DNA of 64,000 nucleotides from Paracholeplasma vituli (GTDB lineage: Bacteria; Bacillota_I; Bacilli_A; Acholeplasmatales; UBA5453), in NCBI RefSeq assembly GCF_025446935.1, contig NZ_JAOEGN010000002.1, forward strand, positions 1-64,000. Direction: 5' to 3'. Positions 5,537 to 54,984 of this stretch are shown here, piece after piece. The notes under the pieces were generated by a model. It was not told the origin of the DNA, did not search any database, and saw only the letters and a list, made by a program, of their open reading frames with translations. How positions within the stretch are numbered: the first letter of the stretch is position 1; each line of letters opens with the position of its first letter. The translations under genes were made by a program, and so were the position numbers.

Positions 5537-5537
5537 A

Positions 5538-33638: not shown

Positions 33639-33690
33639 CTTGACTAGTCAAGCAAGCTCGTGCTATACTATATTTGAATTGACTATACAA
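33639..33690 (+). promoter_or_regulatory. Promoter and paired GntR-type operators of the 17-gene operon
   Basis: TTGACT (33640-33645), an 18-base spacer and TATACT (33664-33669) form the promoter. The perfect 14-bp palindrome CTTGACTAGTCAAG (33639-33652) covers the -35. A second site, TTGACTATACAA (33679-33690), lies after the start point, with centres 39 bases apart. This resembles the pair at 30.5 kb. Confidence 0.75.
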
Positions 33691-33714
33691 CTTTAAAAAT
33701 AGAAGAGGCAACCC

Positions 33715-36588
33715 ATGAAAAAAATCATTTTGGTCACCTTAGTCCTGGCATTACCCTTGGGCTTATGGTTATCCAATCCTAAAAAAGTAAGCGCTTTAAG
33801 CAGTGACTATAACGTTTCAGTATTCGATCTTCAATCTACAGAATCAGAATCGACTTACGCCACTTATAAAGCCAAATTCAATCCGGTCTATCCAACGACA
33901 CCTGTTTCGGTGAATTTGGGTCTTTTTGACTATAAAAATGGCTTGGTTGAATCCGATGAACCCTATATAGCCAATTTTACGGATGATCAATCTGTGACAA
34001 AACAAGGACTTTACATTCCAGAATCTGGGGATATTACATTTGATGTGATGGTTCAAGAAGCTGGCTATTATCAAATAAAGACGACTTACTTGAACATCGT
34101 TGGTCGTAGTTCAAGTATTCAACGTGGCGTTAAAATTAACGGCGAATACCCATTCGTAGAAGCAGAAACCATCTCTTTACACCGATTTTTTAAAGACGCA
34201 TTTAAAGTCTCAGAAGGTCGTGTGAAAGGGACATCAGATATACGTCCAAAACAAGTAGAGGTCCATTTGTGGTCAACCGATACATTTAAAGACCGTGTTG
34301 GTTACTACAACGAAGCATATTATTTCTACTTCAATTCCGGTGTCAATACCATTGAGTTGATAGGGAAACGTGAACCAGTAGTTTTAAATAGTATTGAATT
34401 ATTTCAAACCGAAAAAACACCAAGTTACGCAACCTATTATCAAACCCATCAAGCTCAAGGTGCGGTCGTAAAAGAAGCAAACTACATCATCGAAGCCGAA
34501 GAATCTTTCTTAAAGAGTTCACCATCCTTAAACCCAATCGCTGAATATTCAACATTCAAGTTCTCGCCTTATGAATCATTCATTACACGTTACAACGCAA
34601 TCGGTGGTAATAACTGGCGTATTGCAGGTGATGAAATCACTTGGGAAGTTGAAGTTCAAGAAGCAGGTTTTTACAAGCTGAATTTTAAAGCGATTCAAAA
34701 TTTCTCAAATGGTCAAAGTTCAACGAGAACCCTAAAAGTAAACGGTGAAGTCCCATTTGAAGAAGCTTCTCAAGTTGAATTCAAATATAAAAATAGCCTT
34801 CAATATGTTACTTTAGGCACTAAAAAGAACCCTCAGTATGTGTACTTAGAGGCAGGTAAAAACACCTTATCCCTACAAGCAAACATTGGTACTTACGGTG
34901 AAATTGTTCAACGTGTCAATGTCTTAATTCAAGATTTTAGATCATTCTACCGTGAAGTTGTTATGCGTACAGGATTAAATCCAGACCCATATCAAGATTA
35001 CTTGTTAGATCGTTACATTCCAAATTTCAACGAACGCTTAGATCGTTTTCAATCGGAACTTAAAGAAGTTAAAGCCGATATCATTGAAATCTCAGGTGGT
35101 AGAAGTTCCTTGATTTCTCCGTTCGACCGTGCTTTAAATCAATTAGACAAATTTATTACCGATGAAAAGAACGTTCAAAATGGGTTACGTGAATTTGAAC
35201 AAAACATTTCCTCGTTAGGCTCTTGGGTTATCAATGTTTCTGAACAACCTTTAACCTTAGACCAAATCATCATTTCAGGAAATTCATATAAACTACCAAG
35301 TATCAAAGTCAATTTCTTCCAAAAGATGTGGCATGAACTTACCTTATTCTTTGGTTCCTTCATGGAAGATACGGACTTAGGTTCAGGGGTTAAAGCTGAT
35401 GGCCCAACCATCGAAGTATGGATCGGTACAGGTAGAGATCAAACCACCTTACTCCGGCAATTAATTGATGAATCCTTTACCACACAAGAAGGCGTTAACG
35501 TCAACTTGAAGATGGTTAATATGGGTATTCTACTTCAAGCAACGCTATCAGGTAATGGTCCTGATGTCGCGATTGGTGTCGATCAAAAGATGCCGGTTAA
35601 CTGGGGTATACGTAACGCCATTGTTGATTTATCGACATTTGAAGATTTCGAGGATGTCGCTTCCTGGTTTAGCCCATCCGCGTTAGAAGCACTCACGTTT
35701 AACGGTTCAACCTATGCACTACCTGACACAGAAGACTTCTTAGTCATGTTCTACCGTAAAGATATTTTACAAAGTATAGGTGTCAATCAAATTCCACAAA
35801 CTTGGAATGAAGTCATTGATATTTCACCAATTTTACAAAAACGTTATTTGGAGTTTTATGTTCCGGTCTCACAAGGCTCACTTTCTACCGTTTTATACGC
35901 GATGATGCGTCAAAATGGTGGGGACCTCTATTTAAACAATGGAGAATCTTCAGGGATGTTACAAAAACCGAATATCGATGCATTCTTAGCCTTCACTAAA
36001 CTCTATTCAGATTATGGATTCGCGCTAGAAGCGAACTTCGCCAACCGTTTTAGAAGTGGTGAAATGCCAATTGGTATCGCGAACTATTCGTTATACAACA
36101 CCTTAAGCGTATTCGCACCTGAAATTGCAGGTCAATGGGATTATGCTTTAATTCCTGGGGTGAATCGTGATGGTGAATTACATCAAGAATCCACATCCAC
36201 TGTATCGTCTTCTGTCATCTTGCACAACACGAAACATAAAGAAGCTTCATGGACCTTCTTAAAGTGGTGGTTAAGTAAAGATACCCAAACCGATTATGCA
36301 AGAGGTATGGAAGCCATCATTGGTTCGGCTGCACGTTATCCAACCGCGAACCTTGAAGCCTTTGAACAACTCCCTTGGCCAGTCAAAGATTACCTCACTT
36401 TAAAAGCACAACGTGAAAAAGCAGTCGGGATTCCGACAGTACCTGGCGATTACATCGTTGGTAGACACATTGATAACGCCTTTAGAAGTGTCTTAAATAG
36501 CAATGTTTCACCACAGGATGCCCTGTATCATTATCATTTAAAGATTAATGAAGAGATTACTAGAAAGCGAAATGAATTAGGCTTATGA
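33715..36588 (+). CDS. Extracellular sugar-binding protein with N-terminal carbohydrate-binding-like modules
   Basis: The 957-residue protein has a signal sequence (IILVTLVLALPLGLWL) without a lipobox Cys. Two beta-sandwich modules (about 55-230 and 255-430) share EVEVQEAGFYKLNF-type strands and VNGE(Y/V)PF(V/E)EA. A helical stretch follows (430-560), then a family 1 solute-binding domain (about 565-957: IEVWIGTGRDQTTLL, NGPDVAIGVDQ, FYRKDILQSIG). It probably captures a glycan and passes it to the permeases encoded next, whose first gene overlaps it by four bases. Without a lipobox it may stay anchored by the uncleaved signal. It is the first gene of the long operon. Confidence 0.85.
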   Translation: MKKIILVTLVLALPLGLWLSNPKKVSALSSDYNVSVFDLQSTESESTYATYKAKFNPVYPTTPVSVNLGLFDYKNGLVESDEPYIANFTDDQSVTKQGLYIPESGDITFDVMVQEAGYYQIKTTYLNIVGRSSSIQRGVKINGEYPFVEAETISLHRFFKDAFKVSEGRVKGTSDIRPKQVEVHLWSTDTFKDRVGYYNEAYYFYFNSGVNTIELIGKREPVVLNSIELFQTEKTPSYATYYQTHQAQGAVVKEANYIIEAEESFLKSSPSLNPIAEYSTFKFSPYESFITRYNAIGGNNWRIAGDEITWEVEVQEAGFYKLNFKAIQNFSNGQSSTRTLKVNGEVPFEEASQVEFKYKNSLQYVTLGTKKNPQYVYLEAGKNTLSLQANIGTYGEIVQRVNVLIQDFRSFYREVVMRTGLNPDPYQDYLLDRYIPNFNERLDRFQSELKEVKADIIEISGGRSSLISPFDRALNQLDKFITDEKNVQNGLREFEQNISSLGSWVINVSEQPLTLDQIIISGNSYKLPSIKVNFFQKMWHELTLFFGSFMEDTDLGSGVKADGPTIEVWIGTGRDQTTLLRQLIDESFTTQEGVNVNLKMVNMGILLQATLSGNGPDVAIGVDQKMPVNWGIRNAIVDLSTFEDFEDVASWFSPSALEALTFNGSTYALPDTEDFLVMFYRKDILQSIGVNQIPQTWNEVIDISPILQKRYLEFYVPVSQGSLSTVLYAMMRQNGGDLYLNNGESSGMLQKPNIDAFLAFTKLYSDYGFALEANFANRFRSGEMPIGIANYSLYNTLSVFAPEIAGQWDYALIPGVNRDGELHQESTSTVSSSVILHNTKHKEASWTFLKWWLSKDTQTDYARGMEAIIGSAARYPTANLEAFEQLPWPVKDYLTLKAQREKAVGIPTVPGDYIVGRHIDNAFRSVLNSNVSPQDALYHYHLKINEEITRKRNELGL

Positions 36589-37505
36589 CACAAAATCTAA
36601 AATACAAACAATCGCTTTTCAAACAAATGAAATCTAAGAAAGTTTATTACGGCATGATGGCCCCATTCTTAATCATATTCTTCACATTTACCATCTTGCC
36701 CGTAATCATGAGCTTATTCTTGAGTTTCACGACGTTTGATATGCTAAATCCACCTAAATGGGTGTGGTTAGAAAATTACATCTACTTGCTTTTATACGAT
36801 GATGTGTTCTTAATCGCCTTAAGAAATACATTTATCCTTGCGATCATCATTGGTCCAATCAGTTACGCAGCCTCATTCATTTTCGCTTGGCTTATTAATG
36901 AACTTCCACCAAAAATCCGTTGGGTCTTAACCGTGGTATTCTATGCACCTTCGATTAGTGGATCCGCATTCCTGTTATGGCAATTGATTTTTAATGGTGA
37001 CATGTATGGTTACCTAAACGCATTCTTAATTTCAAGCAATCTCATTGATGCGCCAATTTTGTGGTTAAAAACCCCAGAATACGCGCTCATGATTATCATC
37101 ATCGTTCAACTTTGGTTATCCTTAGGAATCAGTTTCCTATCCTTCGTTGCAGGGTTACAAACAGTCGATAAATCGCTTTATGAAGCGGCTGCCATCGATG
37201 GGATTCGTAACCGTTGGCAAGAGTTGTGGTACGTGACACTGCCTCAAATGATGCCACAATTGATGTTTGGTGCTTTAATGCAAATTACCTCGTCCTTTGG
37301 GATTGCATCGGTATCTACTCAACTCTTAGGGTTCCCATCCGTAGAGTATAGTGGACATACCATCATCACCCACTTGATCGACTTCGGTGCCGGATCACAA
37401 CGTATGGAACTCGGCTACGCTAGCGCCATCGCAACCATTCTATTCTTAATTATGATGGTCGCGAACTTAGCTGTCCAAAAAGTTTTAAGAAGGGTAGGTA
37501 GCTAG
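36585..37505 (+). CDS. Sugar ABC transporter permease (MalF type), first pair
   Basis: The 306-residue membrane protein has about six hydrophobic segments and the cytoplasmic EAA loop YEAAAIDGIRNRWQELWYVTLPQM, which docks the ATPase. It overlaps the binding-protein gene by four bases and the second permease follows after one base. No ATPase is encoded in the island, so a shared MsmX/UgpC-type subunit encoded elsewhere must energise it. Confidence 0.93.
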   Translation: MTQNLKYKQSLFKQMKSKKVYYGMMAPFLIIFFTFTILPVIMSLFLSFTTFDMLNPPKWVWLENYIYLLLYDDVFLIALRNTFILAIIIGPISYAASFIFAWLINELPPKIRWVLTVVFYAPSISGSAFLLWQLIFNGDMYGYLNAFLISSNLIDAPILWLKTPEYALMIIIIVQLWLSLGISFLSFVAGLQTVDKSLYEAAAIDGIRNRWQELWYVTLPQMMPQLMFGALMQITSSFGIASVSTQLLGFPSVEYSGHTIITHLIDFGAGSQRMELGYASAIATILFLIMMVANLAVQKVLRRVGS

Positions 37506-37506
37506 G

Positions 37507-38424
37507 ATGGAATCCAAAGACATCTCCCAGTTAAGAGATTTAAAATTATCCAATATTAAACGTAAGAAGGCCGTTAAAAAAGGCAAAAAACGTCTAAGCC
37601 GTTCGTGGCAAGGCGATTTCGCACTCAGTCTATTATTAATTGGATTTGGCTTATTCAGTGCCTATCCACTCGTATTTACGATTGCGAATGCTTTCAAACC
37701 GTTAGATGAAATCTTCCTATTCCCACCAAGACTATTTCCAAGAAATTTTACATTAGATAACTTCGTGGATCTTTTCAACTTAATTGGGAATACCCGTATT
37801 CCGATTTCAAGATATTTCTTCAATACTTTGGTCATTACGATTGTTGGGGTATCTGGACACGTGTTGTTCGCGGCCCTCGCAGCGTACCCACTGGCTAAAC
37901 ACAAATTCCCAGGAAAAGCACTCATCAACCAATTGATTGTCTATTCCTTAATGTTCTCATCACTCGTTACAGCAGTACCAAACTACTTAGTGATTTCATG
38001 GTTAGGGTTAATCGATACCCACTTAGCCATCATCATCCCATCTTGGGGTTTCACCCTGGGTCTATTCTTAATGAGACAGTTCATGGTAACCATTCCGACT
38101 GAACTCTTAGAAGCGGCGAAGATGGATGGCGCTGGGGAATACCGTGTATTCTTCAAAGTGGTAATGCCACTAGTCAAACCAGCTTGGTTAACGGTCATTA
38201 TCTTGTTGTTCCAACAACTCTGGTCAACAGATGGTGGAGCTTACATCTTCACTGAAAACTTAAAACCTCTCTCGTTCGCCTTACAACAAATTGTTGCGGG
38301 TGGGATTGCGAGAACAGGAGCATCCGCTGCAGTTGCTTTATTGATGTTGGTCGTACCAATCTCAGTATTCATCATTAGCCAATCACGCATCATCGATACG
38401 ATGGCGCATTCCGGTATTAAATAG
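37507..38424 (+). CDS. Sugar ABC transporter permease (MalG type), first pair
   Basis: The 305-residue protein has a basic N-terminal stretch (IKRKKAVKKGKKRLSRSW), about six membrane segments and the EAA loop LLEAAKMDGAGEYRVFFKVVMPL. It pairs with the preceding permease to form the transmembrane channel of an oligosaccharide importer. Confidence 0.93.
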   Translation: MESKDISQLRDLKLSNIKRKKAVKKGKKRLSRSWQGDFALSLLLIGFGLFSAYPLVFTIANAFKPLDEIFLFPPRLFPRNFTLDNFVDLFNLIGNTRIPISRYFFNTLVITIVGVSGHVLFAALAAYPLAKHKFPGKALINQLIVYSLMFSSLVTAVPNYLVISWLGLIDTHLAIIIPSWGFTLGLFLMRQFMVTIPTELLEAAKMDGAGEYRVFFKVVMPLVKPAWLTVIILLFQQLWSTDGGAYIFTENLKPLSFALQQIVAGGIARTGASAAVALLMLVVPISVFIISQSRIIDTMAHSGIK

Positions 38425-38431
38425 GAGGTCC

Positions 38432-39871
38432 ATGATGAAAAAACTATTATTATTCACACTCATCCTCCTTGGTATAGCATTCAGTAATGTCAATCTTGAA
38501 GCTGCTTATAATTATGCTTTTTGGGACACCATTGATTCCTCAGAAGCGATGCATGTCTTAAGAGTCATCGATAACTCCAATATTAAAAGTGATTTAGGCG
38601 TTGAAAAACCCATCACTTTAGGCGATTTACGTGATGTATTCTATTATGAGGATTCGATTTATGTATCGGACGCAACTTCTAATAAAATCCACGTATTCAA
38701 CGAAAACTACGACTATGTTAGAAGTTTACCAGACCCAGCAGACGCCCTTGGACAGCTTAATAGCCCACAAGGCATTCATGTGTTAAACGATTTACTTTAT
38801 GTTGCAGATTATAACAACAACCGTATCGCAATTTTCGATTTAACGAACGATCGTTTGGTTCAAGAAGTTAAAAATCCAAACGATGCCATCTTTGATAACC
38901 TAGTTTTCAAACCGTTACGTGTCTCAGTCGACCGTACCGGACGTATGAATGTCATTGCCTATGACGTATATGAAGGGATCATGGAGTTTGATATCGAAGG
39001 TAACTTCAACCGTTATTTTGGAACAAACACAATTAAGTTATCTGTTTTAGATGCTTTAATCTATCGTTTTTCAACCAAAGAACAACGTGAGAAGATGGCA
39101 TTAAAACTACAAACTTCCTTCACATCGATGGATATTGATGATGATGGGTATATTTACACAGCGTCACGTCTAGAATACTGGGCACCGGTTAAGAAATTAA
39201 ACTTTAAAGGTCGAAATATTTTAGAATCCAAAGGGTATGTCGGCGTCGTTGGGGATGCTAAATTCCAAGAGACCGACAATCGTACGACTACAGGACCTTC
39301 AGCCATCATCGATGTTGCTGTTCATGGCGATAACGAACGTTTCACGATTTTAGATAACACCCGTGGTCGCTTATTTACATACGACATTGAGGGGAATCTC
39401 TTATACATTTCAGGTGGTAAAGGTTCTGAACAAAATAAGTTATCCGGACCAACCGCTGTTACTTATCAAAATGAGCGCATCCTCGTGACCGATAATGTCT
39501 CAAATAGCCTAATGGTGTTTGAACCCATCGCATTCGGGGAATTAGTTAATCTAGCAACAACTCAGTACTATGATATGGAGTATGTGGCTGCGAAAACCAC
39601 TTGGGAAAGTGTTCTAAAACTCAACTCAAACTATTTCTTAGCCTATGCAGGTATCGGTCGTGCACAACTTCGTGAAGGCAATCACAAGCAAGCTATGACC
39701 AATCTAAAATTAGGTTATGATTACTACAATTATTCCAAAGCATTTGAGCAAAACCGTAATGAACAACTAGCCAATACGTTACCGTATGTGCTAGTCGGTG
39801 GATTCGTAATTATGGGTATTCTATTAGCGAAGTCTATCAAGAACGCCATTAAACGAGAAGGAGACGATTGA
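38432..39871 (+). CDS. NHL-repeat propeller protein with C-terminal membrane anchor
   Basis: The 479-residue protein has a signal sequence, NHL-type repeats (for example YVSDATSNKIHVFN, LYVADYNNNRIAIFD, ILVTDNVSNSLMVFE), a TPR-like segment (YDMEYVAAKTTWESVLKLN) and one membrane helix near 455-472 followed by basic residues. It is probably an extracellular beta-propeller tethered to the membrane. Such proteins recur beside YIP1 and DUF5696 genes in Firmicute ABC-transporter clusters, but their role is unknown. GGAGG precedes the tandem ATGATG start. Confidence 0.78.
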   Translation: MMKKLLLFTLILLGIAFSNVNLEAAYNYAFWDTIDSSEAMHVLRVIDNSNIKSDLGVEKPITLGDLRDVFYYEDSIYVSDATSNKIHVFNENYDYVRSLPDPADALGQLNSPQGIHVLNDLLYVADYNNNRIAIFDLTNDRLVQEVKNPNDAIFDNLVFKPLRVSVDRTGRMNVIAYDVYEGIMEFDIEGNFNRYFGTNTIKLSVLDALIYRFSTKEQREKMALKLQTSFTSMDIDDDGYIYTASRLEYWAPVKKLNFKGRNILESKGYVGVVGDAKFQETDNRTTTGPSAIIDVAVHGDNERFTILDNTRGRLFTYDIEGNLLYISGGKGSEQNKLSGPTAVTYQNERILVTDNVSNSLMVFEPIAFGELVNLATTQYYDMEYVAAKTTWESVLKLNSNYFLAYAGIGRAQLREGNHKQAMTNLKLGYDYYNYSKAFEQNRNEQLANTLPYVLVGGFVIMGILLAKSIKNAIKREGDD

Positions 39872-39873
39872 TA

Positions 39874-40560
39874 ATGAATTTACAAAAAATCGGACAAGCA
39901 ATCAAACAATTCAATTACAGTCAATTTTTCCGTCAACTTCTAGAGGATTACGTTAAGTTTCCTCTTTACATACTGACCCATCCGTTTAAAGGCTATGACG
40001 ACTTCAAATTTGAAAACCGTGGCAAACTCTCGGTCGCAATCGTCTACCTAATACTACTGGTTATTACGAACGCCATCAGCGTCACCAGTTCTGGATTTTT
40101 AGTTTCTGCACCTTATGTTGAGAATTTCTCAATTATCCGTACTTTCTTCCTAGTGGTGGTACCAGTTGTCTTGATTACCATCGGCAACTGGTCAATCACC
40201 TCATTATTTGAAGGCAAAGGCAAGATGGTTGAAATCTTCAAAGTCATTTGTTACGCAATTATTCCACTCGTTTGGATAGGTTTACCAATGACTTTGATAT
40301 CCAACTTCTTAATTGCAGAAGAACTTGCAATCTACTACGCAATGAATTCGATCAGTGCGTTCTTAGTCGGTTATATGGCACTATTCGGTCTTTTAGTCAT
40401 TCATGAATATGGCTTATTAAAGACCATCGTCACCCTGTTATTCACAGCGGTGGCTGTAGCCCTCATCATTTTTATCGGGCTACTCATCTTAACTCTATTT
40501 CAACAGCTTTATGGGTTCATCGTTCAAGTTTATGAAGAATTCATACTGCGGGTATCTTAG
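39874..40560 (+). CDS. YIP1 family membrane protein
   Basis: The 228-residue protein has a short cytoplasmic N-terminus containing YVKFPLYILTHPFKGYDDFK, then about five membrane segments, the YIP1-domain pattern. The ATG at 39874, ten bases after AAGGAG, was preferred to a TTG six bases upstream, which lies too close to that site. It overlaps nothing but follows the NHL gene directly. Function is unknown; it may organise the transporter complex. Confidence 0.78.
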   Translation: MNLQKIGQAIKQFNYSQFFRQLLEDYVKFPLYILTHPFKGYDDFKFENRGKLSVAIVYLILLVITNAISVTSSGFLVSAPYVENFSIIRTFFLVVVPVVLITIGNWSITSLFEGKGKMVEIFKVICYAIIPLVWIGLPMTLISNFLIAEELAIYYAMNSISAFLVGYMALFGLLVIHEYGLLKTIVTLLFTAVAVALIIFIGLLILTLFQQLYGFIVQVYEEFILRVS

Positions 40561-40569
40561 GAGGGCGCC

Positions 40570-43062
40570 ATGAAAAGAAAACTCATTAGATTGGCGGTCA
40601 TTCTGTTGCTGTTAGCTAGCGGTGTTGGGTTTATTGCATCCCAAGTCTTAGGGTATCGTGCTGTATATGAACCAAGACCAGCGTACGATAAAACCGGGTT
40701 TGTCGAAAAGAAAGACTTTACCCAAACCAACATTAAACTATCAAACAGTCGATTTGAATTCAATTTAAATCCAGAAGATACCACCTTTACACTATTAGAT
40801 AAAACCACACTTCAAACGTGGCGTTCGAATCCAACACACGAGTCCGCCCTCATCCCAGCGGATGCACGCGAACTCTTCGTGCTTTATTACGAACGTAAGA
40901 TTGAAGCTTCAAAACTCGTCTCCATTAACGACGAATCGATTAAATACGACAATTATGAATTCAGAATTCAAGATGGCGTTGTAGAAGTCTTATACAAGAT
41001 CGGTGGAAAACACAGTATCACCATGACAGACTTACCAAGACAAATCGAAAAAGCCAAATTCGATGAAAAAATCATTGAACCGTTAACCCTCAAAGGGGAA
41101 ACGGACGGGACCATTCGTCGTAACTTAAACTTCTTGAAATCTCAATTTAACTATGTAGAAACAGAAGGTCGTTACTTCTTAAAAACCATCACATCTCAGG
41201 ACGCTTTAGATATCCTCTATAACTTGATATTCGAAGAATCCTTGTACACGATGGAAGATTATGAAGAAGACGCAGCAAAATTTGGTTTTGAAACCAGTAA
41301 GCCATTACCTTATTTTGAATTCTCAATAAAATACCAGTTATCCGATTTGGGCTTCACAGTTGAACTTGTGAACGCATCCATCTTCGAAACCGATGATTTC
41401 CCAATCGCGTATATCGACATCCTCCCATTCTTTGGTGCAGGTAACGTAGGTGATGAAGGGTATACAGTTATTCCGGATGGTTCTGGGATTTATATTGATC
41501 ACAACAACCAAAAGTACAACTCAACATTCTATGAAAAACGCATTTATGGTGCGGACTTATCGATTGGTACTGGCTACGCTGTAAAACCTGAACAAGGTGA
41601 AAAAATCGGGTTACCGATGTATGGTTATCAAAAGAATGGATACGCGTTCATCAACGCGCTTGAATCTGGTGACAGCATGTCAACCATACGAGCAGGATTC
41701 GTTACAGAAGCATCAACCCATAAGATTCCATTTGCACATTACCGTTTCGCGCTACGTGAACGTGACGCCTTTATATTCCGATCGTCTTCACAATCTCAAC
41801 GTGTAACATCCTTTACAAAGGCATACAACACAGCAAATTTTAAAGCGAGCTATCAATTCATCACAAAAACAGACGCAACCTACTTCGATATGGCGAAAAC
41901 CTATCAAACCTATTTAGTCAATCGCTATCAGCTATCTTTAGTTGGTCAAGCTGCACCACTTCATATTACCTTGTTAGGTGGGTTCCAAGAAAAACGCTAT
42001 GTTCTTGGTTTCCCAACCAGCAATACCGCAGCACTGACCTCTAAAGCAGGTGTGCTCAAAGTTGTAGATGATATTAAGAACTTAGGAATCGACTCACTAT
42101 CTGTAACCTACTCAGGCTTTTCAAATGGTGGCGTGAAACCGACTGCCTATGAAAAGATGGTGTATGATAAAGCCATCATTTCAGAAAAAGGACTAAAACA
42201 ACTATCTAACACATTGAAATCCGAAGATATCCCATTCTACTTAGAGTATCTTGCTCAAGAGGGATATACCAAGGCTGGATTAAATTTAGATAAAGACGTT
42301 GTTCAAAACATATTCCATGACCCAATATATCGTTACGATTACGACGAAGCGACAGGGTTAGCGAATCGTGGAACCACCATTCGTTATATCCTCAACACCA
42401 AAGCCCAAGGACGTGTCATCAATACGGTTATGCGTACATCCGATAAGGTGAATAACTTAAATGTAAGTTTAACGGGTTTAGGAAGTTCATTAGCAAGTAA
42501 CCTCGAAAAGAGTAACGTTTTATTCCGCTATGATGTAGTTGACGCTCAAATTGAACTACTTGAAAAACTATCCAACCAAAATATTCAACTTAGAAATCCA
42601 AATCTTTATGCATTAGTATATGCAGATAACATCCTCGACTTAGCGGTTGTGGGAACACTGCATAAGATTGTTGACTATGACATTCCATTCGTTCAACTGG
42701 TATTAAATGGATACTTCCAATATGCTGGTCCAGCTGTGAATACGTATGACAACAAAACTACGAATTGGCATTTACTCAAAGCGATTGAAACCGGTGCGAA
42801 CTTGAACTTCACCTTAACCGAGGAAAATACAATTCAATTGGTTAAGACCGAATACAATTCGCTTTACGCAACCTACTATGCGTATTGGTTATCCGATATT
42901 GAACGTCTTTATGAGACATTAGAAAATCTCAATGTCGATAGGCGAAATATTACAAACCACCGCGTTCTAAACGCTCAAGGCTCACTCGTAGAAGTAACGT
43001 ATAACAACTCGGTAACCATCGAAATCAATTATGAAACAGAAAGTTTTAGGGTGGTATCATGA
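40570..43062 (+). CDS. DUF5696-type surface protein, possible barrel glycosidase relative
   Basis: The 830-residue protein has one N-terminal membrane segment (LIRLAVILLLLASGVGFIA). A beta-rich domain covers about 55-440, including VIPDGSGIYIDHNN. An alpha/beta region from about 455 has alternating strands and helices (VVDDIKNLGIDSLSVTYSGF, DIPFYLEYLAQEG), suggesting a TIM barrel. I recognise the pattern as DUF5696. Its neighbours suggest that it acts on the imported glycan outside the cell, but no catalytic residues can be assigned. The next permease gene overlaps it by four bases. Confidence 0.75.
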   Translation: MKRKLIRLAVILLLLASGVGFIASQVLGYRAVYEPRPAYDKTGFVEKKDFTQTNIKLSNSRFEFNLNPEDTTFTLLDKTTLQTWRSNPTHESALIPADARELFVLYYERKIEASKLVSINDESIKYDNYEFRIQDGVVEVLYKIGGKHSITMTDLPRQIEKAKFDEKIIEPLTLKGETDGTIRRNLNFLKSQFNYVETEGRYFLKTITSQDALDILYNLIFEESLYTMEDYEEDAAKFGFETSKPLPYFEFSIKYQLSDLGFTVELVNASIFETDDFPIAYIDILPFFGAGNVGDEGYTVIPDGSGIYIDHNNQKYNSTFYEKRIYGADLSIGTGYAVKPEQGEKIGLPMYGYQKNGYAFINALESGDSMSTIRAGFVTEASTHKIPFAHYRFALRERDAFIFRSSSQSQRVTSFTKAYNTANFKASYQFITKTDATYFDMAKTYQTYLVNRYQLSLVGQAAPLHITLLGGFQEKRYVLGFPTSNTAALTSKAGVLKVVDDIKNLGIDSLSVTYSGFSNGGVKPTAYEKMVYDKAIISEKGLKQLSNTLKSEDIPFYLEYLAQEGYTKAGLNLDKDVVQNIFHDPIYRYDYDEATGLANRGTTIRYILNTKAQGRVINTVMRTSDKVNNLNVSLTGLGSSLASNLEKSNVLFRYDVVDAQIELLEKLSNQNIQLRNPNLYALVYADNILDLAVVGTLHKIVDYDIPFVQLVLNGYFQYAGPAVNTYDNKTTNWHLLKAIETGANLNFTLTEENTIQLVKTEYNSLYATYYAYWLSDIERLYETLENLNVDRRNITNHRVLNAQGSLVEVTYNNSVTIEINYETESFRVVS

Positions 43063-46792: not shown

Positions 46793-46816
46793 GCGTCAAA
46801 GCAGCCGCTTTGACGC
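46793..46816 (+). other. Strong hairpin after the second binding-protein gene
   Basis: GCGTCAAAGC and GCTTTGACGC form a perfect 10-bp stem with an AGCC loop. No T run follows, so it is not a normal terminator. Such hairpins inside transporter operons commonly protect the upstream binding-protein mRNA; that role is inferred. Confidence 0.7.
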
Positions 46817-47412: not shown

Positions 47413-47436
47413 AGACCAAGGTATGGAGGTACTTTT

Positions 47437-48792
47437 ATGAAAAAAATTATGAGCCTTTTCTTAGGCATCGCATTTCTAACGCTACTATGGGGTTGTGTGA
47501 ATCAACCTACGCCTGAACCCACCCCCACCCCAAATCCAGATGAAGAAAAATTATTAAACGACAAAATCGCTCCGCTTTTATCGTTTGTTGACGCCACCAA
47601 GCGTACAGTATCTGTTCCACAAAACAGTGAATTTGACCTTTATGCAGGCCTAAAAGCCTTAGACAACTTAGAAGGCGATATCACAGAAAAAATCGAAGCG
47701 GATTTAGGTGATTTTGATATTTCAGTCCCTGGCACCTATGAAGTATTCTTCTATGTCGTCGATAAAGCAGGTAACGCATCCACCATGGTAACCAAAATCA
47801 TTACCGTGACTCAAGTTTATGAAATTTTAGCCAAATATCCAATTTATACGGAAAAGATTATGGGTGAAGTTGGCGCGCCAACCCCACCATCCTGTTTCCA
47901 AGGGGCTTATTACCATAAAGTGTTCTCATCGAAAGATTACTGGACTGGTATTGAAGCAGAAGTGACTTTACCAATGCCAGATATCAACCGTTATCAAGCA
48001 AACTACGATACCTCATTGGATATCGATCCAAATGCTAGAAATTTAGATAACCCATCGGTTTACATGGGTGGACATTCCACGACAGAATCAGATGTTGGTT
48101 TATCTTTAAAAACCGTTTTAGTCAAAAACAACGCAGGTGTATCAAACGTTTCGATTGGTTCTTATGCATTCCGCCCGTTTTGGCGCTATATCACCAATCA
48201 CAGTTACGATGCAGGCAGTTATGACCGCGCGAATGGTCGTTACTACAGCGTCTCCTGTTCAGGTGCTGTAACCAAAAACTGTATCGCGAACTGGGATTTC
48301 CAAGACACCGAATATTACTACTTACCAGGTGACCGTGTTAGAATGATCATTTACGCTGTTAAACCAGGTTGGTTACAACTTCAAATCGAACTCATTGAAG
48401 CATCCACGCTTCCTTATTCTGTAGGCGTAAGAACCTATAACGGTTGGGAAGCACCAAAATCTTTCATCAGCCCAATCTTCCCAAGTGGAGGCCATGGTAG
48501 TATGACCGCTGAGTTCAAACGCGTGAACGCGATTGACCAGGTTGCGAATGAAGGTAAACCCGCACAGGAAAGTACGACTTTAGTCCGTGAAGCGATTTGG
48601 CATAACACCTATTTATACCGTAAAATCGGTGATACAAACTACCGTGTACCGATGAATATGACCCGTGTTGGTGTCATGAGTTGCCCACAAGTCAACCAAT
48701 TTACCACCACACCAATTGATCCTATAACCGGTGGACAAAGCGTGACGATTCACCCAGGGACCCCGCGTTTAACGAAGAAAGAAGGCCAATAA
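47437..48792 (+). CDS. Unknown-family island protein 2: lipoprotein with Ig-like domain
   Basis: The 451-residue protein has a lipobox (LLWGC, Cys 21), a Pro/Thr linker, an Ig-like DUF5011-type module (about 55-130, ending FYVVDKAGNASTMVTKIITV) and the unknown domain shared with the 26006 and 53318 products (from SCFQGAYYHKV, about residue 149). Shared blocks are VYMGG, ESDVGL, FRPFWRYI, EYYYLPGDRVRM, GGHG and KRVNAIDQVANEG, ending TGGQSVTIHPG. It is the surface-exposed member of the trio. I do not recognise the domain. Confidence 0.78.
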   Translation: MKKIMSLFLGIAFLTLLWGCVNQPTPEPTPTPNPDEEKLLNDKIAPLLSFVDATKRTVSVPQNSEFDLYAGLKALDNLEGDITEKIEADLGDFDISVPGTYEVFFYVVDKAGNASTMVTKIITVTQVYEILAKYPIYTEKIMGEVGAPTPPSCFQGAYYHKVFSSKDYWTGIEAEVTLPMPDINRYQANYDTSLDIDPNARNLDNPSVYMGGHSTTESDVGLSLKTVLVKNNAGVSNVSIGSYAFRPFWRYITNHSYDAGSYDRANGRYYSVSCSGAVTKNCIANWDFQDTEYYYLPGDRVRMIIYAVKPGWLQLQIELIEASTLPYSVGVRTYNGWEAPKSFISPIFPSGGHGSMTAEFKRVNAIDQVANEGKPAQESTTLVREAIWHNTYLYRKIGDTNYRVPMNMTRVGVMSCPQVNQFTTTPIDPITGGQSVTIHPGTPRLTKKEGQ

Positions 48793-48796
48793 TCTT

Positions 48797-50311
48797 ATGA
48801 GAAAGATTGCAGTACTCCCTTTAGATGAAAGACCTTGTAACTACCATTTTAATCAATGGCTTGTCCGTGGTACAGACTACGAAGTCTTGACCCCAAGTCT
48901 CGATATTTTGGGGGATAAAAAACAAAAAGGTAACTTAGATGCGATTTCTGCTTGGTTGCTGGATGTCTCTAAAGACGTTGACGCGATTGTTTGTGCTGTT
49001 GATACCTTAGTCTATGGTGGGATTGTCCCTTCAAGACTCCATCATGATGAAGTCGACACGTTGTTAAACCGTTTAAACTTACTAAAAACCATTAAAGCTA
49101 AATACCCAAAATTAACCATTTACGCTTATAACCTCATTATGCGTAACCCGAAATACTCTTCAAGTGAAGAAGAACCGGATTACTATGAAACTTGGGGGCG
49201 TGAAATCCACCTCTATGGTGTGTATGAACACAAAAAGACTTTAGGCATTCTAACTGAAAATGAAGCTAAACAACTCGAAGATATCAACAAGCGTATCGAT
49301 CAGGATGCGCTGAAGGATTATCTATGGAGACGTAACCAAAACGTTCAAGTTAACTTAGAATTTTTAAAACTTGTTAAAGATGGCACCATTGATTTCGGTA
49401 TCGTCCCACAAGACGACTCCAGTCCGTATGGTTTAACCGCGACCGATCAAAAAATCATTCGTGAAGCGATCAAAAACTTGGATATTGAACTTTCTTGTTA
49501 TATGTACCCAGGTGCGGATGAAGTGACCAATGTCTTATTGATGAGATATATCAATGTCGACCAACATAAACGTCCAAAGCTATACGTCGAATACGCTTCA
49601 ATTACTGGTGGGCAACAAATCCCTTTATATGAAGATAGATTACTACACGAAACCATTAAGTATCAAATCCTCGCGGTAGGTGGTTTAATTGTTTCATCCA
49701 TATCAGAATGTGATTTGATGTTACTCGTGAATACGCCTTCTTCAAACATGAAAGAAGCGCCAAACCAACACATCGCGAGTCTCGAGTATGACGCATTTAG
49801 AAACTTAATTGAATATGTTGAAAAAGCCAATTACGGCATTGAACTCGGTAAGAAAGTCATCATCGCGGACGTTGCATATGCAAACGGTGGCGATCTAAAC
49901 CTCTTAAAACTACTCAAACAAAAAGGCATTCTTATGAAAGTATCTGCCTACGCAGGTTGGAATACATCAAGCAATACTCTAGGTACTTGTATCCCACAAG
50001 GGATGCTCGATTTCCTATTCCCCAATCGTCAAGAAAATCTAGATTTCTTAGGTCTTCGTTATGTTGAAGATATGGGCTATTGTGCAGTCGTTCGTAAAGA
50101 GATTGCGAGTAAATTAGTGAAACCGAACCACTACTTCTTATTAGACGGTAAACGTGGTGCGGTAGTACACGATATTAAAGTCGCTTTAGAACATTTTATC
50201 GATACCTATTTAAGCAATACCGGGTATCAATTTATCATCAAAGACATCTATTCTCCATGGAATCGTATGTTCGAAACAGGGCTCGACGTCTATATCATTA
50301 AAAATCAGTGA
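48797..50311 (+). CDS. DUF4127 family protein
   Basis: The 504-residue protein begins MRKIAVLPLDERPCNYHF, the hallmark of DUF4127. Conserved polar blocks include VDTLVYGGIVPSRLHH, QDDSSPYGLT, YPGADEVTNVLLMRY and ADVAYANGGD. No signal peptide or membrane segment is seen, so it is cytoplasmic. The acidic and aromatic pattern looks enzymatic, and the family often occurs with sugar transport genes, but I know of no established activity. The gene starts four bases after the previous stop. Confidence 0.85.
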   Translation: MRKIAVLPLDERPCNYHFNQWLVRGTDYEVLTPSLDILGDKKQKGNLDAISAWLLDVSKDVDAIVCAVDTLVYGGIVPSRLHHDEVDTLLNRLNLLKTIKAKYPKLTIYAYNLIMRNPKYSSSEEEPDYYETWGREIHLYGVYEHKKTLGILTENEAKQLEDINKRIDQDALKDYLWRRNQNVQVNLEFLKLVKDGTIDFGIVPQDDSSPYGLTATDQKIIREAIKNLDIELSCYMYPGADEVTNVLLMRYINVDQHKRPKLYVEYASITGGQQIPLYEDRLLHETIKYQILAVGGLIVSSISECDLMLLVNTPSSNMKEAPNQHIASLEYDAFRNLIEYVEKANYGIELGKKVIIADVAYANGGDLNLLKLLKQKGILMKVSAYAGWNTSSNTLGTCIPQGMLDFLFPNRQENLDFLGLRYVEDMGYCAVVRKEIASKLVKPNHYFLLDGKRGAVVHDIKVALEHFIDTYLSNTGYQFIIKDIYSPWNRMFETGLDVYIIKNQ

Positions 50312-51047
50312 ACATTTCTATGATGGCGTACCACTTACCATCTACGAACAAGACAATTTAAACACAAAACCACTTATTTATTTCTTCCATGGTTTCACAG
50401 GCAATAAAGATGCCAATATCATGGGTAGAGGTGAAATCCTCGCTAATCTAGGATTCTATGTAGTCGCGATAGACGCGTATCTACATGGGAAAAGAATGTC
50501 AGAATTAGAAAAGAAACGTTCTAATGTCGAAAAGTATGAAGACATCGTTGAAGTTGCGATTCATACAGCAGAAGATGCGAAGCGATTATTCCATAAATAC
50601 TTTAAACACATTGATACCGTTCAAAAAGACGCGTATTATGCGTATGGGGTATCGATGGGGAGTCTCACAGGCTTTTATCTCGCTTCAATCGAAACCCTTC
50701 TTAAAGGGTTAGTTGGACTAGTATGTACTCCGTCCATGGTCGATTACTACCAAGATAAAGCTGCTTTATATCACTTCAACCAAGGGTTCTTTTATGAAAA
50801 GAAACTTGCGTATTATGAGATGCTAGATCCGTTAAGACACTTTGAAAGATTACGTAATAAGTCCATATTTATGGGTGTTGGGATTAAAGATGAAATTGTT
50901 AAACCAGTTTTCGCTGAAGCCCTTCACAAAGTATTACCTGAAACGATTCTAAAGCATTACGATACCGGACACATATCGACTAAAGAAATGCTAGATGACA
51001 GTTTCAAGTTTATCGAAGAGGTTGCTCATGCAAACAATCCTCGTTAA
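50292..51047 (+). CDS. Alpha/beta hydrolase, first of a tandem pair, with ATA as apparent start
   Basis: The 251-residue protein has FFHGFTG (oxyanion), YGVSMGS (nucleophile Ser), the acid Asp of GIKDEIV and the His of YDTGHIS. The next gene encodes a close paralogue. The only in-frame ATG near the head (50421) lies inside the conserved fold. Aligned with the paralogue's MQTILVKKFTVDG, the first codon falls on ATA at 50292 (ISLKISEHFYDG), ten bases after AGGG. So it either uses an AUA start or carries a changed ATG. Probably a deacylase for glycan substituents. Confidence 0.78.
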   Translation: MSLKISEHFYDGVPLTIYEQDNLNTKPLIYFFHGFTGNKDANIMGRGEILANLGFYVVAIDAYLHGKRMSELEKKRSNVEKYEDIVEVAIHTAEDAKRLFHKYFKHIDTVQKDAYYAYGVSMGSLTGFYLASIETLLKGLVGLVCTPSMVDYYQDKAALYHFNQGFFYEKKLAYYEMLDPLRHFERLRNKSIFMGVGIKDEIVKPVFAEALHKVLPETILKHYDTGHISTKEMLDDSFKFIEEVAHANNPR

Positions 51048-51759
51048 AAAGTTTACAGTAGACGGTATTCCACTCTCTATTTATGAACGTAATACTGATG
51101 AAGCGAAACCCGTCATATTCTCGTTTCATGGCTTTGACGGATACAAGGATGGCGACTTCTTCAAACGCGAAGACGCTTTAGCAAGACTTGGATTCATCGT
51201 CGTTGGATTGGATTCCATCCTCCACGGCGAAAGACGGATTGAACCCTTTGAAGCGATGCCATACTCTGAAAAGATGAAAGATATTCACGAAGTCATTATT
51301 CAATCCGCAATCGATGCGAAAAGGTTGTATGAAAAATACATTCAATACTTCGATCGCGTCATCTCAAATGAAGTTTATGCCATGGGTGTATCCATGGGTG
51401 GAGCCATCTCGATTTACCTATCTACCATTTTTAATTTAAAGAAAGCCGTATCCATAGTCGGTTCACCTTCGATGGTCGATTTCTATCAATATAAAAAGAA
51501 TCAATATAACTGGGCAGATGATTTTTACTACCAAAGCAATCTCGCTTACTTAGAAGCCCATGACCCAGTCATTCATAAAGACCTAATTCGCTGTCCCTTA
51601 TTTTTAACAGGGGGACGCCAAGATGATGTCATACCAGTTGAAATGGTACTAAAACTCAACTCACCTTTAGCAACTATCAAACTCTATGACACCCCACACA
51701 TGCCGAATCAACAACAATTTGATGACGCATACGCATTTTTACTACAAAAGGACGTGTAA
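51028..51759 (+). CDS. Alpha/beta hydrolase, second of a tandem pair
   Basis: The 243-residue protein has SFHGFDGYKDG, MGVSMGGA with the nucleophile Ser, GGRQDDV (acid) and YDTPHMP (His). The ATG at 51028 follows GAAGAGG and overlaps the end of its paralogue by 20 bases. An in-frame upstream ATG at 50995 was rejected because it precedes that site. The tandem copies suggest two related ester or amide substrates. No signal peptide. Confidence 0.88.
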   Translation: MQTILVKKFTVDGIPLSIYERNTDEAKPVIFSFHGFDGYKDGDFFKREDALARLGFIVVGLDSILHGERRIEPFEAMPYSEKMKDIHEVIIQSAIDAKRLYEKYIQYFDRVISNEVYAMGVSMGGAISIYLSTIFNLKKAVSIVGSPSMVDFYQYKKNQYNWADDFYYQSNLAYLEAHDPVIHKDLIRCPLFLTGGRQDDVIPVEMVLKLNSPLATIKLYDTPHMPNQQQFDDAYAFLLQKDV

Positions 51760-51761
51760 TC

Positions 51762-53321
51762 ATGAAAAAAACCTATCAAGCTGTCGTCGCTGGCGGCTCG
51801 CTTGGCGGCATTCTCGCAGCGTACGCCCTCGCGAACGAAGACATTCATACAGCGCTCATTGAAAGTACCGATTGGATTGGTGGACAACTCACCAGCCAAG
51901 GCGTACCTTCAGACGAACACGATTTCATCGAAAAAACCGGGGCGACCCAAACGTATCGCGCATTTAGAGAAAAAATTCGCGCTTACTACCGTAATCACCC
52001 GGATATTATTGACGCACTTAAAACCAAAACGATTTTTAACCCAGGTAATGGTTGGGTATCTAAAAACGCAGCAGACCCAAGGGTTTCTTTGGAAATCTTG
52101 AATGACTTAATTCGCCCTTTTGTGTTAAGTAAAACCTTAGATGTTTATTTAGAGGCTACCGTTACAGGTGCCTTTAAAGAAGCAAATACCGTTAAGCACT
52201 TACTCGTAAATCAATACGGTAAAGACATTTTATTTGAAGCCGATTATTTCTTAGACGCGACCGATACTGGTGAATTATTACCGATTACTGAAACTGCGTA
52301 TGTCACAGGTGCTGAGTCTTTTGAAGAAACACAAGAACCACACGCACCTCTTGAAAAGAATCCATACGATATGCAACCCATCACTTGGATTGCAGCGATG
52401 GGATTCAATCCAAAAAACGAAGTTATTATAGAAAAACCAGCCTTATATGATTACTTTAAATCCTATATTATGCCATTTGGTGAATCTGTCCTAAGTTGGT
52501 ATGCTGCAGGCCTCGAACAAGGCTCTAAACGAGGTTTCTCGCTGTTTGCGGAAGGTCCATATAAAAACACCCCAGCCATGTTTACCTACCGTCAAGTGAT
52601 TGAAAAGAATCACTTTAAATCGACAGTGCCATTCTCAGTAACGCTCATCAACTGGCCACAAAATGACTATTTCTTTGGCAACATCTTTGATGATCCAAAT
52701 CCAGAGTACCATAAGTACGCAGCCAAACAATTGACGCTATCTTTAATCTATTGGCTTCAAACCGAAGCGAGACGTGACGATGGTGGATTTGGGTACAAAG
52801 AAATCTGTTTAGTCCCTGAAGTATTAGGTACCGAAGATGGTCTTGCAAAAGCACCTTACATTCGTGAATCCCGTCGTATTAAGGCTTTATATACCATTAA
52901 AGAACAAGATATCAACAAACGCTATGCTAAGCGTGCGCCTCATTTCAGAGACCGTATTGGGATTGGTCACTACCATATTGATTTACATATGACCACCAAA
53001 ACCAAAACCTATTTCTTTGACGAAACCTACCCATTCCAAATTCCGCTTGGAGCACTTATTCCAATTGAAACCAAGAACTTAATTGCGGCTTGTAAAAATA
53101 TTGGAACGACCCATGTGACAAACGGATGCTATCGTTTACATCCAGTGGAATGGAATATTGGTGAATCCGCAGGCTACTTAGTCGCATTCTGTTTAAAAAA
53201 CAACGTTACCCCAAAAATGGTTCATGAATCCGATATGCTACTAAATCAATATCAAGAAAGACTGATTCAAAAAGGCATTTTAATCGAATGGCCATCTGAA
53301 ATCGTCGAGGTAAAGCTATGA
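51762..53321 (+). CDS. FAD-dependent oxidoreductase (FAD_oxidored type)
   Basis: The 519-residue protein begins with the dinucleotide-binding motif VVAGGSLGGILAA, followed by GGQLTSQGVPSDEH, the flavin-proximal pattern of this family. C-terminal FAD contacts are in RLHPVEWNIGESAGYL. It is cytoplasmic. Its start is two bases after the previous stop, and the next gene overlaps its end. An oxidoreductase inside a glycan-degradation operon suggests a redox step on a sugar or substituent; the reaction is unknown. Confidence 0.82.
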   Translation: MKKTYQAVVAGGSLGGILAAYALANEDIHTALIESTDWIGGQLTSQGVPSDEHDFIEKTGATQTYRAFREKIRAYYRNHPDIIDALKTKTIFNPGNGWVSKNAADPRVSLEILNDLIRPFVLSKTLDVYLEATVTGAFKEANTVKHLLVNQYGKDILFEADYFLDATDTGELLPITETAYVTGAESFEETQEPHAPLEKNPYDMQPITWIAAMGFNPKNEVIIEKPALYDYFKSYIMPFGESVLSWYAAGLEQGSKRGFSLFAEGPYKNTPAMFTYRQVIEKNHFKSTVPFSVTLINWPQNDYFFGNIFDDPNPEYHKYAAKQLTLSLIYWLQTEARRDDGGFGYKEICLVPEVLGTEDGLAKAPYIRESRRIKALYTIKEQDINKRYAKRAPHFRDRIGIGHYHIDLHMTTKTKTYFFDETYPFQIPLGALIPIETKNLIAACKNIGTTHVTNGCYRLHPVEWNIGESAGYLVAFCLKNNVTPKMVHESDMLLNQYQERLIQKGILIEWPSEIVEVKL

Positions 53322-54295
53322 AAAAAGATTTAAACAAGCGTGTTACACCCACATTAGATAGTCATTATGCAGCCTTAGATGCATTTCAAAACATCCCATT
53401 ATATGAAGGTGAAATTCCAGAAGAGTTCTTACCACAAGCCGCTCCTAAGTGTTTCTTAGGCGCTTGGTACCGTAAAGTGTATTCATCAAAAGACGCTTGG
53501 CTTGGGATTGAAGGGATTATTAAACTAGGCGAATTCACACCCGATGAAGCCCGCTTCGGTAATGATAACCGTACATTTTGGTTACGTTACTTAGACAGTC
53601 CTTCGATTTATATGGGTGGTCAAGCTCTAAGTGAATCCGATGCTGGTTTAGGTTGGATGGTAGGCTATGAAACCACCGATACAAGTGAACCATTAAATTA
53701 TGGTTCGAAGAAAGTGGCGTATCGTCCGTTTTACCGTTACATTTACGCTGAAGCCATCGATATCGAGGGTAATGTTCAACGTAACAACGTCAACTCGTGG
53801 AACGTATCTGATCCTAAACGATTTGAATATTACTATTTCCCAGGGGATGTCATTCGTATGAGCGTATATAGCCCAGTTGAAAACTATTTACAGTTGAAGA
53901 TTGAACTCGTTGAACCGACTCAAATACCTAAGTATCAAGCACAAAGAGCGGCATTTAATCTTAAAGATAACAAACCTTCTACCTATTATAGCCCACTATT
54001 TTACAGTGAAGGTCATGGTGTGAATAACGCCGAATTCAAACGTGTGAACTCGATTGACCAATACGGTAATGAAGGTTCAAACGTGAAACCTACTAAAGCG
54101 ACGGTTAGTGAAGCAGAATGGCGTGAAGTATATCTTTACCGCAAAGTCAACAACATACTTGTTAAAGTCCCATTCAACAAGCAAAGACAAACGAGCATGA
54201 TTTGTCCAAATGCTGAATCATTTAGCATTACTGTATCCGAAGAACAAAAACAAAAAGGCGGAGAATCCATCACGATTCATCCGAAGCCGTTATAG
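53318..54295 (+). CDS. Unknown-family island protein 3
   Basis: The 325-residue protein is the third and intact cytoplasmic paralogue. Shared blocks are KCFLGAWYRKV (from about 45), SIYMGG, ESDAGL, YRPFYRYI, EYYYFPGDVIRM, EGHG, KRVNSIDQYGNEG and ESITIHP. There is no signal peptide. It overlaps the FAD oxidoreductase gene as ATGA, so the two are translationally coupled and may act on the same molecule. I do not recognise the family; a carbohydrate-active role is inferred from context. Confidence 0.78.
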   Translation: MKKDLNKRVTPTLDSHYAALDAFQNIPLYEGEIPEEFLPQAAPKCFLGAWYRKVYSSKDAWLGIEGIIKLGEFTPDEARFGNDNRTFWLRYLDSPSIYMGGQALSESDAGLGWMVGYETTDTSEPLNYGSKKVAYRPFYRYIYAEAIDIEGNVQRNNVNSWNVSDPKRFEYYYFPGDVIRMSVYSPVENYLQLKIELVEPTQIPKYQAQRAAFNLKDNKPSTYYSPLFYSEGHGVNNAEFKRVNSIDQYGNEGSNVKPTKATVSEAEWREVYLYRKVNNILVKVPFNKQRQTSMICPNAESFSITVSEEQKQKGGESITIHPKPL

Positions 54296-54306
54296 AAAGA
54301 AGTGTT

Positions 54307-54984
54307 ATGATGAACGTACTAGAACAAATTAAAGGTAAACTGATTGTCAGTTGTCAAGCCTTAGAACATGAACCTCTACATGGTTCTCACATCATGCGTA
54401 AAATGGCTAAAGCAGCCAAAGAAGGTGGCGCATCTGCCATTAGAGCGAATAGCGTATCGGATATCATTGAAATCAAAGCGGAAACCGGATTACCTGTGAT
54501 TGGACTAATCAAAAGAGACTATCCAAAATGTGATGTCTATATTACCCCAACCGTCAAAGAAATCGATGAGTTGATTTCATCTGGTTGTGAGATCATCGCC
54601 ATGGACGCGACGAACCGTTGTCATCCAGATTCAGTTAGTTTAAAAGAAAAAGTAGACCGAATTCATCAAGCTAACCTCTTAGCGATGGCTGACATCTCCA
54701 CTTATGAAGAAGCGATGCACGCTCAAGCATTAGGGTTTGACATGGTTTCTACAACACTTTCTGGGTATACCCCTTATTCACCACAACAAGAAGCACCAGA
54801 CTTCGATTTGGTCGGTAAACTTGTTAAAGATTTAAGTATCCCAGTGATTGCTGAAGGCAGAATCTTCTCAGTTGAAGATATCAAAACAGTTAAAGCGCAC
54901 AATCCATTCGCTATTGTTGTCGGTAGTGCGATTACCCGGCCTCAAGTCATTACTAAAAGATTTGTGGATGCATATCTAGAATAA
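54307..54984 (+). CDS. nanE: N-acetylmannosamine-6-phosphate 2-epimerase
   Basis: The 225-residue TIM-barrel enzyme converts ManNAc-6-phosphate to GlcNAc-6-phosphate. It contains LIVSCQALEHEPLHG, AIRANSVSDI, GLIKRDYP, MADISTYEEA and IAEGRI. It is the last gene of the 17-gene operon and links ManNAc to the nagA-nagB route. No N-acetylneuraminate lyase is in the window, so the ManNAc may come from a source other than sialic acid. Confidence 0.96.
   Translation: MMNVLEQIKGKLIVSCQALEHEPLHGSHIMRKMAKAAKEGGASAIRANSVSDIIEIKAETGLPVIGLIKRDYPKCDVYITPTVKEIDELISSGCEIIAMDATNRCHPDSVSLKEKVDRIHQANLLAMADISTYEEAMHAQALGFDMVSTTLSGYTPYSPQQEAPDFDLVGKLVKDLSIPVIAEGRIFSVEDIKTVKAHNPFAIVVGSAITRPQVITKRFVDAYLE

Follow-up and report, generated by a model that had tools for sequence, protein, structure and literature searches.

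Among the described systems closest to the locus studied here are sialic-acid (nan) operons, with which it has NanE, a ROK kinase, an SGNH-type esterase and nagA/nagB in common, and the NagR/GntR regulons of N-acetylglucosamine (GlcNAc) catabolism, which it resembles in a GntR-UTRA regulator placed beside nagA/nagB and in 12-bp palindrome-like operators. The teichoic-acid linkage unit is N-acetylmannosamine (ManNAc)-beta-1,4-GlcNAc-1-phosphate, and ManNAc, GlcNAc-1-phosphodiesters, esters and beta-GlcNAc are all present in Gram-positive wall polymers and their linkage units. The locus lies in a stretch of 64,000 nucleotides from Paracholeplasma vituli (the window; assembly GCF_025446935.1, contig NZ_JAOEGN010000002.1, positions 1 to 64,000, forward strand) and carries, besides these genes, DUF4127, a FAD-dependent oxidoreductase of the PF12831 family and three members of a family termed here X. 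Gene content, order, conservation, a shared operator motif and recurrent partners were read from sequence, and they suggest GntR-controlled use of a ManNAc- and GlcNAc-containing glycan. We favour this reading tentatively, with somewhat less than half of our confidence placed in it; the substrate is predicted, as is every catalytic role given here to DUF4127, X or the FAD enzyme.

DUF4127, the FAD oxidoreductase and family X, accompanied by NanE or GlcNAc 2-epimerase, NAGPA, SGNH and hexosaminidases, form an uncharacterised amino-sugar module that is real and recurs in Bacilli, Bacteroidota and Acidobacteriota. Close relatives are Acholeplasmataceae. The operon is syntenic in six genomes (G004, G005, G028, G049, G007, and G042 of A. 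granularum) and partly in G008. A cluster in Haploplasma modicum has the order GntR, DUF4127, alpha/beta hydrolase, FAD oxidoreductase, X3, NanE and SGNH, with no importer in the cluster. DUF4127 was found in 20 of 392 genomes in an even draw of the phylum. Most of the 14 examined outside the syntenic group have an amino-sugar gene within ~10 kb, including NanE in six, SGNH in five and the FAD enzyme in four. That DUF4127, the FAD enzyme, X and NanE might rarely be found together is answered by their repeated co-occurrence in several phyla. The presence of two unrelated epimerase families with the module, NanE in Bacilli and GlcNAc 2-epimerase in Bacteroidota, points to ManNAc.

The simplest arrangement is seen in phosphotransferase system (PTS)-type clusters (L227, L229, L230, and L235) from three or four Bacilli genomes, composed of NanE, EIIC-like, HAD-like, DUF4127, SGNH (in three of the four) and RpiR-like genes; Pfam domains were checked for L227 (genome G377), and the others were recognized by sequence likeness. 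No other glycosidase was seen in these clusters, and release of ManNAc or ManNAc-6-phosphate is provisionally assigned to DUF4127 because it is the only candidate in them for breaking a glycosidic bond. In P. vituli, DUF4127 is a cytoplasmic protein (48797-50311; PF13552, E = 7.1e-157) with conserved D, R, E, W and N residues that suggest an enzyme. Its model is confident (predicted local distance difference test, pLDDT, 93.8), and comparison with PDB gave no match at E ≤ 0.001 and no recognisable glycoside hydrolase (GH) fold. A xylose isomerase fold was considered and not accepted, the best matches having a template modelling (TM) score of ~0.2. The remaining enzymes of the set are a cytoplasmic SGNH esterase (46849-47412; PF13472, 2.6e-20), two alpha/beta hydrolases (50292-51047 and 50995-51759; PF01738, 3.7e-7 for the second), the FAD-dependent oxidoreductase, conserved to Bacteroidota (51762-53321; PF12831, 4e-85), and NanE, the ManNAc-6-P 2-epimerase (54307-54984; PF04131, 3.4e-65).

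These genes belong to an array of 17 consecutive open reading frames (ORFs), all confirmed by ORF calls in the window, which occupies 33715-54984 of the + strand with overlaps of 4-53 nt or gaps of up to 64 nt between neighbours. The ORF list shows a gap of 109 nt before 50421, which is artefactual: the frame of alpha/beta hydrolase 1 is open upstream to ~50292, its start is ATG in the orthologues of two relatives and appears to be ATA in this strain, and table-11 ORF callers begin the gene 129 nt too late. The promoter, TTGACT-18-TATACT at 33640-33669, carries the perfect palindrome TTGACTAGTCAA (33640-33651) over its -35 element, while a second operator copy, TTGACTATACAA (33679-33690, + strand), is located 3' of the -10 element. 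Both boxes and the -10 element are kept before the orthologues of the first array gene, which encodes a carbohydrate-binding module (CBM)-substrate-binding protein fusion, in four related genomes from two genera (L048, L050, L164, and L166). On the 3' side of nanE, a perfect hairpin of 11 bp with a T-run behind it (54991-55020, + strand) is a terminator candidate. Another perfect hairpin, of 10 bp and without a T-run, is present upstream of the SGNH gene (46793-46816) and may be an attenuator or a processing site. The preliminary description, which had presented the array as a single one-strand operon with an operator-bearing promoter and one terminator, is borne out in these points. Gene order is conserved in related genera, and the family names given in that description (DUF5696, DUF4127, NanE, FAD_oxidored, Yip1, NHL, and SGNH) were right.

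The array lies within a larger unit of ~33-36 kb: its extent held as described but not its standing as the whole unit, which reaches back to 22146 on the upstream side, extends to at least 54984 and may continue as far as 58302. On the - strand are nagB, glucosamine-6-phosphate deaminase (22146-22874; PF01182, E = 1.4e-23), nagA, a GlcNAc-6-P deacetylase candidate of amidohydrolase type (22878-24002; PF01979, E = 1.5e-26), and a ROK-family sugar kinase, candidate for a ManNAc/GlcNAc kinase (24192-25094; PF00480, E = 4.5e-48). In one related locus (L175, genome G005), nagB-nagA is duplicated around a GH20 gene (483-2359 and 4909-6785). The + strand continues with a NagR-like GntR/UTRA regulator candidate (25191-25901; UTRA 1.9e-42, GntR 4.4e-21), X1, a secreted NAGPA (phosphodiester glycosidase) protein (26934-28766; PF09992, E = 9.6e-27) with a conserved DGGGS motif and predicted activity, a GH20 (20C-type) beta-N-acetylhexosaminidase without a signal peptide (28766-30466; PF18088, PF00728), an aBig lipoprotein with a lipobox and weak similarity to GH85_C (30591-32885; PF20578, E = 3.5e-21), and a DUF624 membrane protein (32922-33623; PF04854, E = 4.1e-9). 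Downstream of the array, beyond a lipoprotein gene of unrecognised family, a second 20C-type GH20 gene with a separate promoter (56476-58302, + strand; PF18088, 1.3e-48) is a probable partner. An amino-sugar end point at ManNAc-6-P/GlcNAc-6-P, already proposed from the array, gains from nagA, nagB, the ROK kinase, GntR, NAGPA and the two GH20 genes at its flanks.

A refined 12-bp operator motif, TTGWCTAKWCAW, connects the parts of this unit. It is found before X1 (TTGTCTATACAA, 25951-25962, - strand, with counterparts in L177, L175, L164, and L166), before aBig (TTGACTATACAT, 30523-30534, + strand) and before the first gene of the array, and with one mismatch before nagA, at 24152, where it would serve nagBA. 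Five matches occur in the window against 0.31 expected, and none of 100 shuffles reaches five, an enrichment that is not independent because the motif was drawn partly from the same sites. Better support is given by the genome-wide count, with only six places in 1.86 Mb and four of them at promoters of this locus, and by orthologous promoters, including a perfect match before DUF4127 of H. modicum (L174). No near-match was detected between genes in seven other scanned loci with a DUF5696 importer cassette (L036, L038, L040, L041, L044, L045, and L051). Scans for TTGACTAGTCAA allowing two mismatches were not above chance and those for TTGWCTAKWCAW allowing one were weakly so, leaving exact TTGWCTAKWCAW matches and their positions as the informative ones. 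Sites at promoters of the locus and its orthologues, together with the lack of near-matches at other cassettes, support one apparent GntR regulon comprising nagBA, the NAGPA-GH20 genes and the array, probably controlled by the adjacent GntR protein, which is predicted to bind these operators.

Two proteins had been listed as separate unknowns. They proved to be paralogues, X2 and X3, with a third, X1, at 26006. X1 (26006-26818, + strand) and X3 (53318-54295) are cytoplasmic and 42% identical, while X2 (47437-48792) is a lipoprotein in which an Ig-like domain precedes a C-terminal family-X domain. The 3' end of X1 is frameshifted relative to intact orthologues, and its last ~39 conserved residues run on in another frame to the NAGPA start (26006-26937), due to either a genuine mutation or an assembly error. 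Searches of Pfam, NCBIfam and PDB sequences gave no match to family X, and the PDB sequence search was equally unproductive for DUF5696 and DUF4127. Residues Y51, Y98, D108, R140, K241, D247, Q248 and E252 are strictly conserved in an alignment of 62 sequences. The X3 model (pLDDT 95.7) is a jelly roll with YncM, eqolisins and GH16 as nearest structures. Likeness to eqolisin peptidases and GH16 is limited to this fold (Foldseek E 2e-7 to 1e-5), whereas identity is ~10%, TM is ~0.43, and the invariant residues are the family's own.

Family X is distributed in Acholeplasmataceae and relatives, gut Clostridia, Bacteroidota, Acidobacteriota and Sumerlaeota; a search in phages gave no match. In the order, family X proper is present in ~10 of 160 genomes, counting strong matches that cover the X domain and leaving out many weak matches to the Ig-like N-terminus of X2. 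Its loci include the FAD enzyme in 21 cases, DUF4127 in 17, GHL10 in 14, SGNH in 12, and NanE and GlcNAc 2-epimerase in 9 each, with NAGPA also recurring; these counts are descriptive only, because the loci are not independent of phylogeny. Bacteroidota combine X and the FAD enzyme with GlcNAc 2-epimerase, NAGPA, SGNH, DUF5009, DUF4434 and SusCD-like genes. In eight loci of ruminant-gut Clostridia (L104, L105, L106, L109, L112, L115, L121, and L123), X is positioned directly 3' of an aBig-like gene and no pathway genes were found near it. In seven loci of Pedobacter-type genomes (L139, L142, L143, L155, L158, L161, and L163), X adjoins trigger factor-, clpP- and clpX-like genes.

The first part of the array is an importer cassette. 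It starts with a fusion of a CBM35-like domain and a substrate-binding protein (CBM-SBP; 33715-36588; SBP_bac_8 9.7e-21, CBM_35 7e-5, under cut-off), followed by permeases A1 (36585-37505; PF00528) and A2 (37507-38424; PF00528), a membrane-anchored NHL propeller with two hydrophobic segments (38432-39871; PF01436, 2.3e-10), a YIP1 membrane protein (39868-40560; PF04893, 1.1e-7), N-terminally anchored DUF5696 (40570-43062; PF18952, 2.1e-131), and permeases B1 (43059-44240) and B2 (44224-45270; PF00528). Permease B1 matches PF00528 weakly (16.9 bits) and is backed by synteny. A second substrate-binding lipoprotein, SBP2 (45297-46784; SBP_bac_8 5.3e-9), lies between the cassette and the hairpin at 46793. 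The operon has no ATPase gene; two MsmK/UgpC-type ATPases above the curated cut-off are encoded elsewhere in the genome, and no permease genes were seen in the short flanks around them.

The full order of the cassette is preserved in 37 of 46 Bacilli loci, contradicting the possibility that its genes are rarely together, and in the other nine a locus or contig end interrupts it or one ORF call is missing. NHL and YIP1 are fused in many paralogous cassettes. DUF5696 has three copies in this genome and is also present in many Bacilli; cassettes occur in several Bacilli families (L225-L264, L036-L055), some genomes having at least three copies. Neighbours differ between copies, with enzymes for murein, beta-1,2-glucan or beta-1,3-glucan: GH94 SOGP, PF10091 and GH3 in L036 and L037, GH16 and GH3 in L038, and NamZ, GH3, a BadF-type kinase and a SIS protein in L045. 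A tandem of three NAGPA genes is located near the cassette of L250. Pathway specificity of NHL-YIP1-DUF5696 is ruled out by these neighbourhoods, and the cassette with both permease pairs and CBM-SBP is, by sequence, a general oligosaccharide importer. NHL, YIP1 and DUF5696 thus lose the role of markers of a new glycan pathway given to them in the preliminary description, and its proposal of an undescribed pathway is retained for DUF4127, the FAD enzyme and X. Profiles of DUF5696, GH101 and GH129 are matched by bridging proteins, indicating a remote GH101/GH129-like barrel. In contrast to those families, catalysis by DUF5696 is doubtful because only one acidic residue, D303, is conserved at ≥ 90% in a divergent alignment of 45 homologues; a role in binding or as a scaffold is more likely for DUF5696 than an enzymatic one.

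Combining these observations, a route can be proposed. Outside the cell, NAGPA would open a GlcNAc-1-phosphodiester bond and the X2 lipoprotein would trim or bind the chain. Import of oligosaccharides would employ the two substrate-binding proteins and the generic cassette, and an ATPase would be provided in trans. Once in the cytoplasm, the oligosaccharides would lose acyl esters to SGNH and the alpha/beta hydrolases and beta-GlcNAc to the two GH20 enzymes, while ManNAc would be freed by DUF4127 together with X3 and the FAD oxidoreductase. ROK kinase, NanE, NagA and NagB would then convert ManNAc and GlcNAc to fructose-6-phosphate. NAGPA points to a GlcNAc-1-phosphodiester, SGNH and the alpha/beta hydrolases to esters, and GH20/GH84 to beta-GlcNAc, and the natural source is possibly, and in our judgement most likely, a Gram-positive wall glycopolymer or teichoic-acid linkage unit. 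A broader proposal is advanced with more caution, as possible rather than probable: DUF4127, X and the PF12831 enzyme would constitute an undescribed pathway of Bacilli, Bacteroidota and Acidobacteriota for cleaving ManNAc glycosidic bonds, in which DUF4127 would be a new glycosidase family whose fold is also new, and the DUF5696 cassette would represent a separate and widespread class of glycan importers with doubled permeases.

Several observations weigh against use of a ManNAc-containing wall glycan. Free ManNAc of other origin could be what the ROK kinase and NanE act on, and neither a known teichoic-acid phosphodiesterase nor a known mannosaminidase was recognised. The DUF4127 cluster of G214 (L228) includes a GH38 alpha-mannosidase and a mannose-6-P-isomerase-like gene, neighbours that would suit a mannose glycan. 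The PTS-type clusters are without the FAD enzyme and X, and X, which also stands alone in gut Clostridia and Pedobacter, is not strictly bound to the pathway.

The same GH38 gene is in line with degradation of N-glycans from a host or fungi, or of other GlcNAc-rich glycans of eukaryotes, GlcNAc-phospho-mannose caps among them; NanE would then serve ManNAc derived from sialic acid. The 20C-type GH20 enzymes and the GH85_C-like segment in aBig agree with this, and the human NAGPA relative uncovers GlcNAc-P-mannose. We nevertheless consider it unlikely. No match to NanA (N-acetylneuraminate lyase) was found in the genome, while control genomes gave matches, which makes sialic acid an improbable source and rules out a sialic-acid operon; scans of window genes around the locus revealed no mannosidase, fucosidase or sialidase domain, and in the Bacteroidota versions GlcNAc 2-epimerase is the partner of X and the FAD enzyme. 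Scavenging of plain GlcNAc/chitooligosaccharides or hyaluronan-type chains, with NanE, DUF4127, X and the FAD enzyme accessory or handling a minor ManNAc by-product, is equally hard to favour. It would account for nagA, nagB, GH20 and GntR here and for GHL10 and GH84 neighbours in related loci; however, DUF4127 keeps NanE in PTS-type clusters where no GH20 was seen, epimerases of two non-homologous families recur, and no chitinase or hyaluronidase domain was found. Recycling of murein (peptidoglycan), suggested by the shared importer cassette in murein clusters of G001, G005, G032 and G024 with NamZ, NagZ-like GH3, MurK-like kinase and MurQ-like SIS protein, is quite improbable: NamZ, MurQ and GH3 (NagZ) are absent among the scanned genes of the locus and present in paralogous loci, and in G005 the murein set and this locus are both present, apart from each other. 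That unrelated genes came together as if by chance under a single promoter would fit the patchy occurrence in the order, and it is scarcely credible given synteny over at least three genera, partners recurring in other phyla and the contradicting gene-neighbourhood data.

Elsewhere in the window, a 503-aa PEP-utilising enzyme with PtsI-like domains is overlapped by a ROK kinase (2888-5340).

No enzyme that releases ManNAc from the wall glycopolymers of bacteria is described in the literature searched, where the term acetylmannosaminidase, DUF4127, DUF5696 and the fixed DUF5696-NHL-YIP1 importer cassette are likewise absent, no bacterial substrate was found under phosphodiester glycosidase, and the teichoic linkage unit gave nothing useful. 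The locus supplies candidate ManNAc-releasing enzymes, DUF4127 first, and the minimal gene sets of Haploplasma and the PTS-type clusters are small enough for expression. The cassette may also explain uptake of large oligosaccharides by wall-less bacteria.

Compared with nan operons, the genome is without NanA and no sialidase was seen in the locus, and the unit differs from NagR/GntR regulons in its motif TTGWCTAKWCAW and in that NAGPA, X, DUF4127 and the FAD enzyme belong to it. The importer cassette is shared with the murein-recycling NamZ/MurQ clusters found in these bacteria, while the catabolic enzymes here are different. As in CUT1-type importers of MalEFG/MsmEFGK style, a substrate-binding protein is accompanied by two BPD_transp_1 permeases, and MsmK/UgpC-like ATPases are encoded outside the operon, but here two permease pairs, the CBM-SBP fusion and NHL-YIP1-DUF5696 are joined in one fixed cassette.

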